Positions 20,747 through 29,350 of a DNA stretch of 64,000 bases are shown here, piece by piece. A program made the position numbers and the translations under genes. Origin of the DNA: Salinivirgaceae bacterium (GTDB taxonomy: Bacteria > Bacteroidota > Bacteroidia > Bacteroidales > SZUA-534); the NCBI GenBank assembly GCA_017527435.1, contig JAFXQB010000025.1, positions 186,001-250,000 of the forward strand, written 5' to 3'. Numbering within the stretch: the first letter of the stretch is position 1; each line of letters begins with the position of its first letter. The notes under the pieces were generated by a model, which was not told the origin of the DNA, ran no database searches, and worked only from the letters and a program-made list of their open reading frames with translations.

Positions 20747-20750
20747 CATT

Positions 20751-20823
20751 GAAGGATTGAAGGATTGAAGGACTGAAGGATTGAAGGATTGAAGTCCCGA
20801 TAGCTATCGGGATGAAGGATTGA
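20751..20823. repeat. Degenerate octamer array (ATTGAAGG) with embedded palindrome
   Basis: About six head-to-tail copies of ATTGAAGG or close variants run from the glmS stop to 20823, interrupted by the 18-bp palindrome at 20795-20812. No coding sense. Confidence 0.85.
20795..20812. repeat. Perfect 18-bp palindrome TCCCGATAGCTATCGGGA
   Basis: TCCCGATAGCTATCGGGA reads the same on both strands. A relative, CCGATAACTATCGG, lies at 43858-43871. Both are intergenic and flanked by direct repeats. Confidence 0.85.
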
Positions 20824-21849: not shown

Positions 21850-21971
21850 AGTTTTCAATATCAGTTTGTAGCAAAGATATATTTTTGTTTAATCGGAGAA
21901 TTGTTAAACGCAACCATTAAAACGTAAACTAATCTTTACTCATTACTCTTTAAACATTACACAATTGTATG

Positions 21972-22080
21972 GGAATTTTGTGATTTTTATCCCCCAAAAG
22001 TTAGGAATTTTGTGATTTTTTACTCTAAAAAGTTAGGAATTTTGTGATTTTTAACTCATTTTTGTTCGGAATTTTGTGAT
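21972..22080 (+). repeat. Four 13-mers (GGAATTTTGTGAT) at an exact 32-bp period
   Basis: GGAATTTTGTGAT occurs at 21972-21984, 22004-22016, 22036-22048 and 22068-22080, always 32 bp apart. The first three continue with TTTTT, and copies two and three are preceded by GTTA, so the shared unit is about 21 bp with an 11-bp variable part. The array ends 19 bp before the start codon of the ATPase/DUF4143 gene. The spacing is close to three helical turns. It is the only structure seen in the 250-bp gap. Confidence 0.9.
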
Positions 22081-22099
22081 GAATAATTGCTGAATAACG

Positions 22100-23428
22100 A
22101 TGAGAAGAAAAATTGACAGCTTTCTAATAAATTGGAAATCAAAAGAAAAACGTCAGCCATTGATAGTAAAAGGTGCACGGCAGATTGGTAAAACCTATTC
22201 TGTAGAGAAATTCGCTAAAACATACAGCCATTTGGTGGAAGTGAATTTTGCGACAGAGCCGTATTACAAAACTATTTTCGACAATGGTTTTTCTGTCGAT
22301 GAAATCATAAAGCAGTTGTCTGCCATCAATCCGAAATTCCAATTTGTGCCGCATAAAACATTGATTTTCTTTGATGAATTGCAAGCCTGCCCGAATTGTG
22401 CGACAAGTCTTAAACCTTTTGACATCGACGGACGGTTCGATGTTATATGTTCTGGCTCGCTGATGGGTATAAGTTACAGCGAGATAGAATCTAACAGCGT
22501 TGGTTATAAAGAAGAGTATGAGATGCATTCGCTTGATTTCGAAGAATTTCTGTGGGCAAAGGGATATACTGACGAGCAGATTGATGACCTTTACAATTAT
22601 ATGCGCGATGTGAAGCCGTTGCCCGATGCCATTCTTGAAAAAATGTTCGGCAATTTCAAGGAATTCATGCTGACAGGCGGAATGCCGGCAGTGGTGAAAC
22701 AGTTTGTAAAACAGAGCAATTTTTCGGGCATATTGAAAATTCAAAAGAAACTTTTGCTTGATTATGAAGAAGATATTACCAAATATGCTATCGGAATCGA
22801 TAAAGCAAAAGTCAGAAATATCTATATGCATATTCCCGTTTATCTGGCAAAAGACAACAAGAAATTTCAGATTTCGAAAGTGGCGAAAGGTGCTCGTAAC
22901 AGAGAGTATGTTGGCACGGTCGATTGGCTTTGTGATGCGGGTATCGTCAACATTTGCTACTATTTAGACTCACTTGAACTGCCGCTGAAGGGCAATTACA
23001 ATCCTAACAACTACAAGGTTTATTATCACGATACAGGGCTGCTGGTAGCTTCAATGGAAGATGAGGCGCAGATTGATTTGTTCAGGAACCGTAACTTCAA
23101 CACCTACAAAGGCGCCATTTATGAAAATGTTGTGGGTGAGATGCTTGTGAAATCTGGCTTTGGGCTGTATTGTTACAAGAACGAAAAATCGACCGTTGAG
23201 ATGGATTTCTTTGTTCGCGATGCCGAAACGCTGATTCCAGTTGAGGTGAAAGCTACCGATAACGCCACAAAATCGCTTGTCAAACTGATAAAACAAAACG
23301 ACAATATCAAGTATGGTATTAAGCTGTGCTACAAGAATGTAGGCTTTAACGGACAGTTCTATACGTTCCCTTATTTTATGACATTTTTACTGAAGCGGTT
23401 CATTGCTGATAGAATTACTAAAGGTTGA
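22100..23428 (+). CDS. AAA-type ATPase with C-terminal DUF4143 nuclease-like domain
   Basis: 442 residues. Walker A GARQIGKT at 25-32, Walker B LIFFDELQACP at 88-98, sensor-like DVICSGSLMG about 114-123. The C-terminal DUF4143 part (about 340-430) contains EMDFF...LIPVEVKA, which looks like the Asp ... Glu-x-Lys core of a PD-(D/E)XK fold. These ATPases are abundant and lineage-specific in bacteria and archaea, with no settled role; defence or mobile-element links have been suggested. It stands alone, with the 32-bp periodic array immediately upstream and no terminator recognised after it. GC is lower than in neighbouring housekeeping genes. Confidence 0.9.
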   Translation: MRRKIDSFLINWKSKEKRQPLIVKGARQIGKTYSVEKFAKTYSHLVEVNFATEPYYKTIFDNGFSVDEIIKQLSAINPKFQFVPHKTLIFFDELQACPNCATSLKPFDIDGRFDVICSGSLMGISYSEIESNSVGYKEEYEMHSLDFEEFLWAKGYTDEQIDDLYNYMRDVKPLPDAILEKMFGNFKEFMLTGGMPAVVKQFVKQSNFSGILKIQKKLLLDYEEDITKYAIGIDKAKVRNIYMHIPVYLAKDNKKFQISKVAKGARNREYVGTVDWLCDAGIVNICYYLDSLELPLKGNYNPNNYKVYYHDTGLLVASMEDEAQIDLFRNRNFNTYKGAIYENVVGEMLVKSGFGLYCYKNEKSTVEMDFFVRDAETLIPVEVKATDNATKSLVKLIKQNDNIKYGIKLCYKNVGFNGQFYTFPYFMTFLLKRFIADRITKG

Positions 23429-23826
23429 AAAAATTGATGTTTTACGACTTTTTTATGCCCCGTGCCCAAAATATTTATCATTCACCATTTGTGTTTATGG
23501 TGTGACCAATCAGTAATTTCCTTATACTTGCATTGTCACATGACTGAAAAAATGGAATTACTGACGCTTGCAATCCCGATGCTTTTGTGTGCCGCCGCCT
23601 TTGGCGCGTTGCGGTTTGCCAAACGTTTTGCGTTTGCAGGATATTGTTTTGTTGGTAATTATTATTTTATTGTAAATCAACAAAATACCCCCCCTGTTTT
23701 CTTTGTTGCATAAGGCTGAACCGCAACGGTTTTCACCAAATAAATTGCAATCACAAAGTCACGCTGCCATAAGGCGGAGCGGCTTTTTGGTACTGAATTT
23801 TATGTTTAACTAAATACTTTTTTGAT
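23429..23826. other. 398-bp spacer with small stem-loops upstream of the LRR gene
   Basis: Possible 57-residue frame 23540-23713 (MTEKMELLTLAIPML...) with a hydrophobic start is not supported by a clear ribosome site or family. Two short related motifs, CATAAGGCTGAACCGC near 23709 and CATAAGGCGGAGCGGC near 23769, each sit by a small hairpin (AACCG-caa-CGGTT at about 23718-23730; GCTGC with GCGGC near 23763-23782). No RNA family recognised. Confidence 0.45.
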
Positions 23827-26541
23827 ATGAGGAAATTTGCGACACTTTTTTTAGGCGTATTGTTTGCTGGGCAGGCATGGGCTCAACAACCAGAACCAGC
23901 GTATAATGAATGGTTTTACGACGGCATGATTGATTCAGAATTGAACCATGTCAATACCGTAGCCGGAACAAGTACCAATGCCATAGCTATTGAAATTCCC
24001 GAAGCGTATGCTGACAATGTATATGATTTATGGGACAGTCAATTTTGTATTTATCTTAAGGATAACGAAGGGCAAGTTGAAGGCAATGATTTTTCTATGT
24101 CGCTTGATGTGTATTGGGAGAGCGACGATGAAGCAGATAATGCTCAAATATATTTTATCTTCGGAAGAAGCTTCTATAATAGTGAAGGTGAGTGGATTGA
24201 TTATACATGGAACTCAACAGATAATACAGAATTGATTTCGCCCGATGATTTTTGGAGCTTACAGCAGAAAGCGGTTACTGTCGCAAAAAACGAATGGACA
24301 ACAGTTTCTTGGGGTGATGACATAACAATTGGTGATAAAGGTGAGAATCAAATAGGCATAAGAATTGATCTTGCCGCAACTCGCTTAGGCGCAGGTCAAT
24401 TTCGTAATAATACAGGAACATTCTATTTCCGCAACATCGAGATAAAACTTGGCGAAGACAATGTTCTCTCTTTCTTCGGATTAGAAGAAAACAACGGCAA
24501 CTACACACTATCTTATGAAACCAATGGCAGCGAGGCCACGGTTACAGGAATTGAATTATTAAAAGAAAATGTGTCAAACGTTACTATTCCGTCAACCGTA
24601 ACCATCGAAGGTGTTGAATACACTGTTACAGGCATAAGTGGTGACGCATTCGCAAATTGCAGATTACATTCGGCAACAATTCCTAATACAGTTACAACTA
24701 TTGGTGATGATGCCTTCGAAAATGTGTACGTAATTGTATATTCTGGCAATGCCACAGGTGAACCTTGGGGCGCGACAAAAATTGCAGGCTTTGTCGATGA
24801 AGACGGTTTTTTATATACTGATGCCGAAAAGACGAATCTTGTATCATACATCGGTGAAGAAACTAATATAACCATTCCAAATTCAGTAATTACTATTGGC
24901 GAAGGTGCGTTTAGTAGCAACACAAAGTTGACATCGGTAATTATACCAAACTCTGTCACAACAATTGGCGATTGGGCATTCTATAATTGCAGAAATCTGA
25001 CATCAATGACCATTCCAAACTCTGTGACAAGCATCGGCGATTATACGTTTGAGCATTGTGAAAATATGACATCGATAACCCTTCCGAATACGCTTACACG
25101 CATTAGCGAAGAAATGTTCCATAGTTGCTATAAGCTGGCTTCGATAACAATTCCCGAAACTGTCACAAGCATTGGATTTGATGCGTTTGTGGCTTGCAGG
25201 AGTCTGACCGAACTGAAAATCCCTAACGCGGTTACAGAAATTGGCCCCTACGCATTTTATTTATGTAATGGCCTGACCTACAACATATATGACAGCGCTT
25301 TGTATTTGGGCAACGACGTTAATCCTTATTTGTGTCTGATAGATGCTGAATCACAAGATGTAACTTCGTGTGAAGTACATCCCAACTGTAGATTCATTAA
25401 TCATAGGGCATTCTTTTTCCACGAGAAAATAACTACTGTATCCATTCCCGAATCAGTTACAAGGGTTGGAGGATGGGCGTTCCTTGGATGCAGGAATTTG
25501 GAGTTCAACGAATATGACAACGCATTGTATTTGGGCAATAGCGAGAACCCATATTTATGCCTGGTTCAAGCAAAATCGTCGGATATAACATCTTGCGAAA
25601 TAAATAGCAACTGCAAGATTATTTGCTCTATGGCCTTTGGAAGTGAGAATTTAAGCACGGTAACCATTCCTAATTCAGTAACAGTCATTGAGGACGGTGG
25701 TAATGGTGGTGGGTTTAATATCAACCAAGGAACTTTGTATTGCCAGGCGGATTCAATACCTGCAGGTTGGCAAAAATGGTGGAAAAATGATAATGATGAT
25801 GTATTGGCAAAATGGAGCTGCAAAGTGTTGAATATAGGTGTGAATAATGCGGAGTATGGTGTAGCGGCAGTCGCTGGCGATGTTATTGAGTTGAGTGATG
25901 GTTCGCGTTGGAGTCCGAGCGGTACCAATGTCACATTAACCGCAACGGCAAAAGACGGCTATCATTTTGTTAAATGGTCGGATAACAACAATAATGCGAC
26001 ACGCACATTAAACGTAACATCCGATTCAACCCTTACTGCATTTTTTGAAGCGCATACTATTGTTACCGATGCAGCAGTTGCTGCCACCGAAACACAATCA
26101 GGTCTTACTGAAGGCTCGCATTGCTCTGTATGTGGTGCAGTTATAGTCGCACAAGAAGTTATTGCCGCATTAGGTGGTGGAAATGAAAACCAAGGGGGCA
26201 ACGAGAATCAAGGTGAAAATGAAAACCAAGGTGGCAATCAAGGCAACGAGAATCAAGGTGGAAATAATGAAGGTGGTGAAAACCAAGGTGGAGAGAACAC
26301 CAATCCGGGAACTGCTGTTGCTGAATCTGCCGCCAATGCATTAAACGTTTACACCCACGGCAACATCATTGTGGTTGAAAACGCCACCGCTGAAATCAGC
26401 GTTTATGATGCCATGGGACGATTGGTTGCTCGTAGAGACGTGGCGCGCCGCGTCTCTACTGCCGAAATTCGCATAAACACCGCAGGCATTTACATTGTGA
26501 AGATTGGCGAGGTGGCAAAACGGGTGATGATTAATGATTGA
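23827..26541 (+). CDS. BspA-like leucine-rich-repeat surface protein with T9SS sorting domain
   Basis: 904 residues. Signal peptide 1-19 (cut after AWA). About 20-220 is a beta-sandwich domain resembling carbohydrate-binding modules. About 230-640 is a solenoid of LRR_5 (BspA-type) repeats of the form TIPNSVTTIGDWAFYNC. Two inserted modules of the form YDNALYLGNSENPYLCL...DITSCEI interrupt it. About 667-742 resembles an InlB B-repeat (GYHFVKWSDNNNNATRTLNV); 745-778 matches the TEGSHCSVCGAVIVAQEVI motif of some BspA proteins; 782-828 is a Gly/Asn/Gln/Glu linker; 836-904 is a type A T9SS sorting domain (YDAMGRLV...NTAGIYIVKIG). It is predicted to be secreted through T9SS and attached to the surface, perhaps for adhesion. 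The linker and a palindrome inside the sorting domain are noted separately. Confidence 0.92.
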   Translation: MRKFATLFLGVLFAGQAWAQQPEPAYNEWFYDGMIDSELNHVNTVAGTSTNAIAIEIPEAYADNVYDLWDSQFCIYLKDNEGQVEGNDFSMSLDVYWESDDEADNAQIYFIFGRSFYNSEGEWIDYTWNSTDNTELISPDDFWSLQQKAVTVAKNEWTTVSWGDDITIGDKGENQIGIRIDLAATRLGAGQFRNNTGTFYFRNIEIKLGEDNVLSFFGLEENNGNYTLSYETNGSEATVTGIELLKENVSNVTIPSTVTIEGVEYTVTGISGDAFANCRLHSATIPNTVTTIGDDAFENVYVIVYSGNATGEPWGATKIAGFVDEDGFLYTDAEKTNLVSYIGEETNITIPNSVITIGEGAFSSNTKLTSVIIPNSVTTIGDWAFYNCRNLTSMTIPNSVTSIGDYTFEHCENMTSITLPNTLTRISEEMFHSCYKLASITIPETVTSIGFDAFVACRSLTELKIPNAVTEIGPYAFYLCNGLTYNIYDSALYLGNDVNPYLCLIDAESQDVTSCEVHPNCRFINHRAFFFHEKITTVSIPESVTRVGGWAFLGCRNLEFNEYDNALYLGNSENPYLCLVQAKSSDITSCEINSNCKIICSMAFGSENLSTVTIPNSVTVIEDGGNGGGFNINQGTLYCQADSIPAGWQKWWKNDNDDVLAKWSCKVLNIGVNNAEYGVAAVAGDVIELSDGSRWSPSGTNVTLTATAKDGYHFVKWSDNNNNATRTLNVTSDSTLTAFFEAHTIVTDAAVAATETQSGLTEGSHCSVCGAVIVAQEVIAALGGGNENQGGNENQGENENQGGNQGNENQGGNNEGGENQGGENTNPGTAVAESAANALNVYTHGNIIVVENATAEISVYDAMGRLVARRDVARRVSTAEIRINTAGIYIVKIGEVAKRVMIND
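26173..26305 (+). repeat. Short coding repeat for the GNENQGG linker
   Basis: Tandem GAAAACCAAGGTGGC-type units encode GGNENQGGNENQGENENQ-like low-complexity sequence. Length is likely to vary between strains by slippage. Confidence 0.85.
26432..26459. repeat. REP-like palindrome inside the sorting-domain coding sequence (LRR 1)
   Basis: GTAGAGACGTGGCG pairs with CGCCGCGTCTCTAC as a 28-bp inverted repeat with one G-T type mismatch. It is in frame and encodes RRDVARRVST between YDAMGRLVA and AEIRINTAG. Related palindromes lie at 29089-29116, 26554-26573 and 59245-59267. Confidence 0.85.
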
Positions 26542-26553
26542 TTGAATATTTAG

Positions 26554-26573
26554 AGACGATTCGCGCATCGTCT
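26554..26573 (+). repeat. Small palindrome after the first LRR gene
   Basis: AGACGAT (26554-26560) pairs with ATCGTCT (26567-26573). The left end TAGAGACG matches the flank of the palindrome inside the gene, so it looks like the same family in its intergenic form. It lies between the two LRR genes and may also act as a weak terminator. Confidence 0.6.
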
Positions 26574-26618
26574 TTGCAGAAACAAAACGATAATATTTTA
26601 ATAAACAATATAATTCTT

Positions 26619-29195
26619 ATGCAACGCATTTTTACCATCATGTTCGCTGCGATGCTCGCGGGGCAGGTTATGGCGCAGACAACTTTTAATGTTGACGGAC
26701 TGAAGTACACTATTACCGATGAAAAAAAACATGAAGTTTCGGTTGGTAAAAGTTCTTACAACAGCCCTTCGGGCGATTTGGAAATACCTTCGTATGTTAG
26801 AAAACCAGGTGGAGTAACTTATACGGTTACAAGTATTGACAACTGCGCGTTTTATAGTTGCAGCCGTCTTACCTCTGTAACCATTCCGAATTCAATAACA
26901 AGCATTGGCGAATCTGCGTTCAATCATTGTAGCGGTTTGACGGAGATAATCATTCCGAATTCGGTAACAAGCATTGAATATAGTACATTTGCGTATTGCC
27001 GCGGCCTTACTTCGGTAACTATTCCGAATTCGGTAACAAGCATCGGCAAGTATGCGTTCGACTATTGTGACAGCCTGACAGAAGTGACCATCCCCAATTC
27101 TGTTACGAGCATCGGTGAAAAAGCGTTCTCTGGTTGCAGCAGCTTGACATCAGTCTCCATCCCTAATTCGGTTACAAGCATTGGTGATGGTGCGTTTTAC
27201 GATTGCAGCGGCCTGACAGAGGTAACCATCCCGAATTCGGTAACAAGTATCGGTAATCATGCGTTTTACTGTTGCAGAGGTCTGACAGAGGTAACCATTC
27301 CGAATTCGATAACGAGCATTGAATATAGTACATTTGAGTATTGCAGCGGCCTGACTTTGGTTACCATTCCTAATTCGGTTACAAGCATTGGCAAAAGTGC
27401 ATTCAGTGGTTGTATTGGTTTGACTTCAATTACCATTCCGAATTCGGTAACAAGCATTGGTGATGGTGCGTTTTACGATTGCAGCGGCCTGACAGAGGTA
27501 ACCATCCCGAATTCGGTAACAAGTATCGGTAATCATGCGTTTTACTGTTGCAGAGGCCTGACAGAGGTAACCATTCCGAATTCGGTTACAAGCATCGGTA
27601 ACAATGCGTTTTACGATTGTGGCGGCCTGACAGAGTTAACCATCCCCAATTCGTTAACAAGCATTGGCAACGGCGCATTCAGGAATTGCCACTGCCTTAA
27701 TGAAATAAATGTGAATAGCAATAACGCGAACTACACATCAGAAAACGGTGTTTTATTCAACAAGGATAAAACAACAATTGTTTGTTGTCCTGCAGGAAAA
27801 TTGGATACAACATACACAATTCCATATTCGGTTACAAGTATTGACAATTATGCGTTTTATGGTTGCAGCGGCCTGATAGAGGTAACCATTCCGAATTCGG
27901 TAACAAGCATTGGTGATTGGGCGTTTTACGGTTGCAGTGGCCTTTCCTCAATAACCATTCCGAATTCGGTAACAATCATTGGTAACGATGCGTTCAGTCA
28001 TTGTAGCAGTTTGCAATATAATGAGTATGACAGTGCTTATTATTTTGGAAATGATGAAAATCCGTATTTGTGCCTTATAAAGGCTAAATCAACCGACATA
28101 ACATCATGCGAGATAAACAACAACTGCAAGACTATATATTATGATGCGTTCGATGGTTGTCGCGGTCTGACTTCAATAACCATCCCAAACTCGATAACAA
28201 GTATCGGCGACTATGCGTTCTATGTATGCAAAAAATTGACATCGGTCACCATTCCAAATTCTGTTACAAGCATTGGCAACAATGCTTTCTTCGGATGCAG
28301 CGGTCTAACATCAATCACCATCGGCAATTCTGTTACAAGCATTGAAGATAATACGTTTGGAAATTGCAACAGCCTTACCTCGGTGACCATCCCAAATTCG
28401 GTAACAAGCATTAGCGAATCGGCGTTCCAAGGTTGCAGTGGCCTTACCTCAATAACCATTCCGAATTCGGTAACAAGCATTGGCAACCGTGCGTTCAGTG
28501 ATTGCGGAAGTTTACAATATAAAGAGTATGATAATGCATATTATTTAGGAAATAGTGAGAATCCGTATTTGTGCCTTATAAAGGCTAAATCATCCGACAT
28601 AACGTCATGCGAGATAAACAATAACTGCAAGATTATATATTATGGTGCGTTCTCTGGTTGCTACAGCCTTAAATCGGTAATTATTTCCAATTCAGTTGAA
28701 AGCATCGGCAGTTATGCGTTCAATGATTGTATTGACCTTATCTCGGTAATCATTCCTAATTCAGTTGAAAGAATCGCCAGTTATGCATTCGATGAATGCA
28801 TTGACCTTGTTTCGGTAACCATTCCCAATTCAGTTAAAAGCATCGGAGGCTATGCATTCAATGAATGTTTCGACTTGACAATTACTTGTGAGGCTGAGTC
28901 TCAGCCTTCTGGTTGGGATAAAGATTGGAACTATCACAACCGGCCTGTAGTTTGGGGATATACACCTACGCCCATCACAGTAAAAGCCGTTAGCACCATA
29001 AATATTTACACCCACGGCAACACAATAACTGTTGAAAACGCTACCGCTGAAATCATTGTTTATGATGCGATGGGACGATTGGTTGCTCGTAGAGACGCGG
29101 CGCGCCATGCCTCTACTGCCGAAATTCGCATCAATACCGCGGGCATTTACATTGTAAAGGTTGGCAACGTGGCACATCGGGTGATGGTGAACTGA
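26619..29195 (+). CDS. BspA-like protein of about 23 LRR_5 repeats with T9SS sorting domain
   Basis: 858 residues from the ATG at 26619 (MQRIFTIMFAAMLAGQVMAQ), which gives a clean signal peptide; the frame is open upstream to 26538 but that leader is unlikely. Nearly the whole mature protein is a solenoid of about 23 repeats of 23 residues with consensus LTSVTIPNSVTSIGNxAFxxCSG. Two modules of the form EYDNAYYLGNSENPYLCL...SSDITSCEINNNCK and one NVNSNNANYTSENGVLFNKD module interrupt it. Residues about 790-858 form a type A sorting domain nearly identical to that of the preceding gene. The pair is tandem, 77 bp apart, and arose by duplication. Predicted surface-exposed adhesin-like protein. 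Confidence 0.92.
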   Translation: MQRIFTIMFAAMLAGQVMAQTTFNVDGLKYTITDEKKHEVSVGKSSYNSPSGDLEIPSYVRKPGGVTYTVTSIDNCAFYSCSRLTSVTIPNSITSIGESAFNHCSGLTEIIIPNSVTSIEYSTFAYCRGLTSVTIPNSVTSIGKYAFDYCDSLTEVTIPNSVTSIGEKAFSGCSSLTSVSIPNSVTSIGDGAFYDCSGLTEVTIPNSVTSIGNHAFYCCRGLTEVTIPNSITSIEYSTFEYCSGLTLVTIPNSVTSIGKSAFSGCIGLTSITIPNSVTSIGDGAFYDCSGLTEVTIPNSVTSIGNHAFYCCRGLTEVTIPNSVTSIGNNAFYDCGGLTELTIPNSLTSIGNGAFRNCHCLNEINVNSNNANYTSENGVLFNKDKTTIVCCPAGKLDTTYTIPYSVTSIDNYAFYGCSGLIEVTIPNSVTSIGDWAFYGCSGLSSITIPNSVTIIGNDAFSHCSSLQYNEYDSAYYFGNDENPYLCLIKAKSTDITSCEINNNCKTIYYDAFDGCRGLTSITIPNSITSIGDYAFYVCKKLTSVTIPNSVTSIGNNAFFGCSGLTSITIGNSVTSIEDNTFGNCNSLTSVTIPNSVTSISESAFQGCSGLTSITIPNSVTSIGNRAFSDCGSLQYKEYDNAYYLGNSENPYLCLIKAKSSDITSCEINNNCKIIYYGAFSGCYSLKSVIISNSVESIGSYAFNDCIDLISVIIPNSVERIASYAFDECIDLVSVTIPNSVKSIGGYAFNECFDLTITCEAESQPSGWDKDWNYHNRPVVWGYTPTPITVKAVSTINIYTHGNTITVENATAEIIVYDAMGRLVARRDAARHASTAEIRINTAGIYIVKVGNVAHRVMVN
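27181..27308 (+). repeat. Recent 276-bp tandem duplication inside the LRR gene, left copy
   Basis: The 128 bases from 27181 equal those from 27457 except T27281 versus C27557. The offset is 276 bp, exactly four 69-bp LRR units. Confidence 0.9.
27457..27584 (+). repeat. Recent 276-bp tandem duplication inside the LRR gene, right copy
   Basis: Right-hand copy of the block starting at 27181, 127 of 128 bases identical. Other repeats of the gene differ much more, so this step is recent. Confidence 0.9.
29089..29116. repeat. REP-like palindrome inside the sorting-domain coding sequence (LRR 2)
   Basis: GTAGAGACGCGGCGCGCC followed by ATGCCTCTAC, a more decayed version of the element at 26432. In frame, encoding RRDAARHAST at the same place of the sorting domain. 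Confidence 0.8.
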
Positions 29196-29225
29196 TAATC
29201 GGGTAAAATATTGAATATCCGCATT

Positions 29226-29254
29226 GTAGGGCTGTCATATTGTGGCAGCCCTAC
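29226..29254 (+). repeat. Palindrome GTAGGGCTG / CAGCCCTAC after the second LRR gene
   Basis: GTAGGGCTG (29226-29234) pairs perfectly with CAGCCCTAC (29246-29254), loop 11 nt. No T-run follows, so it is either a weak terminator or an intergenic palindromic element. The rest of the gap to 29350 holds nothing recognised. Confidence 0.65.
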
Positions 29255-29350
29255 GTGTTTAAATACTTTATAACCCCAATCTTCTAAAAAATCCCCCAAC
29301 AAGTGTTACATTTGAAAAATTGGCGCGTCATTTATGGTGTAATTTGATAA

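Follow-up and report, generated by a model that had tools for sequence, protein, structure and literature searches.

A phased repeat array as the probable private operator of an AAA_14-DUF4143 ATPase gene

The window analysed here, a stretch of 64,000 nucleotides from a Salinivirgaceae bacterium, carries four identical repeats in strict phase just upstream of an ATPase gene, which raises the question of what such an array is for and which protein reads it. Our preferred answer, to which we give a probability of roughly 0.7, is that the array serves the downstream ATPase gene as a private operator, which the ATPase would bind and thereby regulate itself. Taken separately, direct binding of the ATPase to its own array appears highly probable from sequence patterns, and autoregulation, whether by repression or by tuning of its own synthesis, somewhat less assured; a role in anti-phage defence, with a nuclease held in check on the array, is rather doubtful. 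The computations that support the operator show that such arrays are general among homologues, that their period is fixed by subfamily and their motif by gene, that the motif covaries with two protein surfaces, that array and gene move together, and that the array lies close to the promoter.

The array and the ATPase in the window

The array spans 21972..22080 on the forward strand, where TRF also called a 32-bp tandem array, and consists of four direct copies of the core GGAATTTTGTGAT, located at 21972..21984, 22004..22016, 22036..22048 and 22068..22080. An earlier note, written from the letters alone, had reported four copies at these starting points in 32-bp phase, with 19 bp from the last copy to the start codon; all four matches are exact, and the distance is confirmed by the last core ending at 22080 and the ATG lying at 22100. 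Its figure of 11-14 bp for the variable part was looser, since the gap between cores is 19 bp, with partly conserved flanking TTTTTA and AAAGTTA and only a freely variable middle. The array reaches a score of 26/26. Throughout the 3.17-Mb genome of the bacterium, the exact 13-mer is confined to the four array positions, and single-mismatch matches occur at about the level of a reversed-pattern control. The core is conserved in orthologues: among five of them, variation affects 2 of 52 columns in the core and 18 of 58 in the linkers (Fisher p = 1.6e-4), which places the core under purifying selection.

The gene that follows (22100..23428, forward strand) encodes a protein of 442 amino acids with Pfam AAA_14 and DUF4143 domains. 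An AAA+ core with its lid (residues 1-230, 22100..22789) features Walker A GARQIGKT, Walker B DELQ, a GSL sensor and GGMP. In the AlphaFold2 model, a winged-helix domain (residues 235-309, 22802..23026, pLDDT 92) is built from helices 235-250, 258-261 and 267-279 and strands 283-289 and 300-309, that is, a helix-turn-helix plus wing, of which residues 267-279 (22898..22936), including E269, form the predicted recognition helix. A PD-(D/E)XK-like domain (residues 336-442, 23105..23425) retains E342, E367, D369, E382 and K384, and includes a loop, N-E-K, at residues 361-363 (23180..23188). Foldseek placed the model near ORC/Cdc6, RuvB and STAND proteins, the top matches being ORC/Cdc6 proteins, several in DNA-bound complexes; a sequence search for solved structures found no full-length relative.

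The protein matches the PADLOC PDC-S01 profile PDLC04786 over residues 1-434 (E = 3.7e-150), a full-length match, and combines an ATPase core with a PD-(D/E)XK-like domain bearing putative catalytic residues, as expected of PDC-S01. The passages on PDC-S01 describe it as an ATPase with a fused PD-(D/E)XK-superfamily domain that ranks fourth in frequency among defences across prokaryotes, validation of most PDCs being pending (PMC12988326), and as the individual defence locus met most often in 6,530 rumen genomes (PMC13356809). Not only the window protein but also its array-bearing relatives match the PDC-S01 models, which makes them single-gene candidates for phage defence by PADLOC listing; a cis-array goes unmentioned in the PDC-S01 passages of both papers (PMC12988326, PMC13356809).

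Other systems resemble the locus in part. Orc1/Cdc6 initiators have origin recognition boxes, which are repeated sites beside the initiator gene, and share the AAA+ plus winged-helix architecture; the window family differs by its extra PD-(D/E)XK-like domain and its many paralogues per genome with different motifs, and no sign of a replication origin was seen. In plasmid parS/parC and iteron systems, arrays of direct repeats lie beside and over the promoter of the binding protein's gene and double as its operator. The earlier suggestion of a parS- or iteron-like site finds no support as an identity: the locus lies on a chromosomal 260-kb contig, is flanked by yitT, the ATPase, BspA-like and ECF sigma genes, among which no Rep/ParA-type gene was seen, and has many chromosomal counterparts; it is also a single gene whose arrays differ from one paralogue to the next. 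A CRISPR array was likewise rejected, given the core of only 13 bp, the partly conserved 19-bp linkers and the lack of any cas-like ORF noted adjoining the array.

Arrays and promoter elements among homologues

Arrays were sought in the 220 bp upstream of 109 AAA_14-DUF4143 genes of Bacteroidales (38 of 60 relative genomes matched), requiring three phased copies at any period from 24 to 47 bp and p ≤ 0.01 in dinucleotide shuffles. This threshold was reached by 85 of the 109 genes, and at a score cut of 21 the count was again 85/109, compared with 6/210 neighbouring genes of the same loci; about a fifth of the homologues had no detectable array. The arrays are made of 3-6 direct repeats, the final core beginning 15-92 bp ahead of the ATG. 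Despite the permitted range, all had a period of about 32-34 bp, with spacings of 33 bp (159 times), 32 bp (56), 34 bp (7) and 31 bp (1). The periodic repeats that the earlier note proposed to look for upstream of homologues are thus present. Chance or low-complexity periodicity, which would rest on the fact that AT-rich intergenic DNA yields some weak repeats, as in the six controls, is refuted by this excess, by the uniform 32-33 bp period and by the z = 8.4 of the window array against dinucleotide shuffles, and we regard it as practically negligible.

Other subfamilies keep other periods. A second set of DUF4143 genes in the same genome has periods of 22-23 bp, and a dedicated search of close homologues found a period of exactly 23 bp in 24/24 genes of a sister subfamily. 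PDC-S27 genes, encoding PF01637-type ATPases (L234-L263), also bear repeats just upstream in some members; these putative operators are, however, tandem palindromes about 52-54 bp apart in a minority of the sampled members. Phylum-wide sampling of a more distantly related DUF4143 subfamily mostly turned up no detectable array. At L013 (reverse strand), in G002, an TGTACAATTCGTTTTG repeat with ~22-bp spacing lies beside the 32-bp array, just upstream, and resembles the shorter-period class. The motif itself changes from gene to gene among the array-bearing homologues, so the period is a trait of the subfamily and the motif a trait of the gene; the phasing first noticed in the window is accordingly a general, subfamily-specific property. 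Arrays of 32-33 bp also precede homologues from plasmid and phage collections, including Bacillota, Actinomycetota, Chlamydiota and Pseudomonadota; within this set, a Fusobacterium gene and a Bacteroides plasmid gene were without an array. The Bacteroidetes, the scope set by the earlier note, do hold array-bearing homologues but proved too narrow, as gene and array occur together in several phyla.

Many of these arrays overlap or adjoin the promoter, as judged by the consensus element. The Bacteroidota -7 consensus is TAnnTTTG; a degenerate version, CATTTTTG, lies between cores 3 and 4 of the window array (22057..22064, forward strand) and marks a putative promoter, and the orthologue G006 has a full TAnnTTTG, TATTTTTG, in its place. 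The element was found in 66 of the 85 array-bearing upstream regions (8.5 expected), and in 34 of these 66 it falls inside the array span. Such overlap fits self-regulation. It also weakens the idea that the repeats function as RNA, be it a leader, an attenuator, a riboswitch or a CRISPR-like transcript, since in those 34 cases part of the array would not be transcribed with the gene; in the 23-bp subfamily, the promoter element, where found, lies 25-46 bp before the ATG. A stretch of 151 nt does fold somewhat stably as single-stranded RNA (z = -3.0), the single-stranded DNA fold of the array being unremarkable (z = -0.64), but a search of Rfam gave no match up to E = 1 and the linkers are short, with no spacer-like role. 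We consider a function as RNA very improbable.

Covariation of motif and protein

If the ATPase is the reader, protein and motif should change together. Motif similarity correlates with protein identity (r = 0.36; 0.03 for a reverse-complement control), and once overall identity is subtracted the excess signal peaks at residues 251-280, with lesser peaks near 211-250, 291-320 and 351-370; the excess in the winged helix (residues 221-310) is significant by permutation (p = 0.001). All these tests compare related sequences in non-independent pairs, with kinship handled by permutation and dereplication only.

A contrast between 26 non-redundant proteins with the window motif, which may form a single clade, and three near relatives using other motifs singled out 3 of 162 conserved columns, namely E269, where the recognition helix starts, and the loop residues N361 and K363 of the nuclease-like domain; conservation within the same-motif group alone does not single out the recognition helix. 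Relatives with N361/K363 have motifs that begin with GGAA, and relatives with E269 have motifs that end with GTGAT. Two natural swaps separate the halves: L341 keeps N361/K363 and GGAA and has D269 with an altered 3' half, and L344 keeps E269 and GTGAT with an altered loop and 5' half. CTC stands in the 5' part of the motif of all six relatives in which residue 361 is R or K and residue 363 is D or N, and the same split recurs in other clades (for example L057 versus L029/L061, and L030 versus L067). Over 226 pairs, the partial correlation of the 5' half-site is 0.18 with the loop and -0.10 with the helix, and that of the 3' half-site is 0.47 with the helix and -0.10 with the loop. Judged on sequences, the tracking of the 3' half by the recognition helix and of the 5' half by the nuclease-like-domain loop is a strong lead and not proof, because the residues were picked post hoc and the pairs are not independent.

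These patterns suggest how the protein could work. An AAA+ protein whose ORC/STAND-like core is combined with a winged helix and a PD-(D/E)XK-like domain would read every 32-bp unit in the same orientation, with the recognition helix contacting the 3' half, GTGAT, and the loop of the nuclease-like domain the 5' half, GGAA. With copies spaced by a near-integral number of helical turns, monomers could line up head to tail along a single face of the DNA, covering the promoter, and such an assembly would repress, or at least tune, synthesis of the protein. A motif of its own for each family member would allow many paralogues to coexist without cross-talk. When motifs were compared within and between genomes, those sharing a genome were not significantly further apart, which gives no demonstration of selection for insulation.

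Alternatively, the array might be bound by an independent host protein, a transcription factor or a nucleoid protein, that controls the ATPase gene. AT-rich phased repeats are a common form of operator, and binding by the ATPase is something we infer. A host factor would not, however, readily account for motifs that differ between paralogues of one genome and covary with the winged helix and loop of the ATPase, nor for the joint movement of gene and array, also across phyla, and no conserved second gene was seen. We hold this alternative to be improbable.

Transfer of the unit and orphan arrays

The operator model further supposes that array and gene move between genomes as a single unit. G002 carries a homologous unit at another locus with flanks unrelated to the window; similarity of 90.7% extends over 21972-23416, opening with the first base of repeat 1 and stopping 12 bp short of the gene end. 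On this alignment, array plus gene is a transferable block, which supports the autonomous unit suggested by the earlier note; as a self-repressing unit, that suggestion holds in outline. The immediate neighbours of the ATPase in the window are yitT and BspA-like repeat genes. In the genus, yitT is kept in 11/11 searched genomes, with the unit beside it in only 4, and the interval from yitT to an ECF sigma gene, 21870-29340, is variable, these two genes being adjacent in three related genomes. Clean transposition with target-site duplication was rejected, as yitT loci without the gene give no clean empty site and the interval is variable; the locus in the window showed no recognisable terminal inverted repeats or target-site duplications. 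The surroundings hold two further repeat features: an ATTGAAGG 8-bp tandem repeat of about 6 copies at 20748-20794, intergenic and possibly a phase-variable tract, and two large BspA-like proteins, built of 69-bp (23-aa) repeat units, at 23827-29195, adjoining the ATPase.

A scan of 84,980 genomes for the motif alone, as a pair of exact cores separated by 18-21 bp, yielded 75 loci which, with two viral-contig loci, make 80 arrays, in Bacteroidales, Clostridia, Bacilli, Lachnospiraceae, Fibrobacter and other taxa; the named genomes reached are mostly metagenome-assembled. The ATPase is the next ORF at 46 of the 80 arrays, and over the aligned part nearly all of these proteins share about 60% identity or more with the window protein, L278 being an exception at 34%. 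At about 29 same-motif arrays, no ATPase lies within 2.5 kb downstream. Only 4 of 27 genomes with such orphan arrays encode an ATPase of at least 60% identity, so most orphans are not obviously targets of a resident cognate protein. Together with the lack of any other exact motif copy in the window's own genome, this led us to reject a simple trans regulon; a pure self-operator does not predict orphan arrays either, some lying in genomes without a close ATPase.

Decay of former units explains some orphans, five same-motif arrays adjoining truncated ATPase remnants. At L314 and L324, from Clostridia and Bacilli metagenome-assembled genomes, the array is joined to the ATPase near codon 117-119 by nearly the same internal deletion, the N-terminal part being gone, and L300 keeps the array with only about the last 20 ATPase codons. 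One orphan array recurs at one place in four genomes (L302, L307, L325, L326); in these small numbers, both genomes that encode a 65% identical ATPase have all three cores intact, and core 3 is substituted in the two without.

Remnants of this kind are also what one would expect if the array were mainly a recombination, integration or centromere-like site, that is, the footprint of a mobile unit or a nuclease target. Orphan arrays adjoin rpsB, whiA, pcrA and other unrelated genes, some of their flanks (L281, L289, L297, L305, L327, L329) share pieces in varying combinations that resemble recombination junctions, and the ATPase has its conserved PD-(D/E)XK-like domain. The fixed orientation just upstream of, or over, the promoter speaks against it, as do the unclean empty sites and the lack of recognisable terminal repeats or duplications at the window locus. 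This explanation seems to us unlikely, if less so than a host factor.

The window unit also resembles toxin-antitoxin operators, such as the type IV AbiE, in being compact, mobile and putatively autoregulated. At L309 and L322, a same-motif array, an AbiE-like two-gene operon, a second array and the ATPase follow one another in that order, which places the same array ahead of an AbiE-like operon too; the window unit differs in being one gene with no antitoxin protein. A link to the P. gingivalis BrickBuilt MITE, with its 23-nt repeats, was rejected, its paper mentioning no ATPase.

Two IMG/VR contigs that represent one phage-like sequence (L339:1254-1459 and L340:190-395) contain two exact GGAATTTTGTGAT cores 32 bp apart, within roughly 1.1 kb without long ORFs but with other TTCCGTCATATT repeats; nearby genes have PHROG matches to an RNA-binding protein family and a NinI-like phosphatase family. 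This array is possibly a decoy or a relic. For three other motifs, phage-borne arrays were absent or matched only within coding sequence.

A bolder extension, which we judge unlikely although somewhat less so than a recombination site, is a one-gene immune or selfish system in which the array serves as a safety catch, with the AAA+ nuclease parked on its private array. Loss or titration of the sites, through phage decoys, loss of the array or an incoming copy, would then release the nuclease. Were this true, solo arrays left after gene loss would be immunity relics, the phage-like array a counter-defence decoy, and a motif read by two movable protein surfaces at a spacing set by the subfamily would amount to a natural recognition code.

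We found no earlier description of the pairing of ATPase and array in the literature outside preprints, and the Pfam name DUF4143 turned up in one paper only among the full texts searched. The AAA_14-DUF4143 family is very common yet unstudied, and a private DNA target beside most genes of this subfamily would provide a first concrete handle on what its members recognise. The arrays make both autoregulation and sequestration directly testable, and the large natural set of protein-motif pairs may allow a DNA recognition code to be read.
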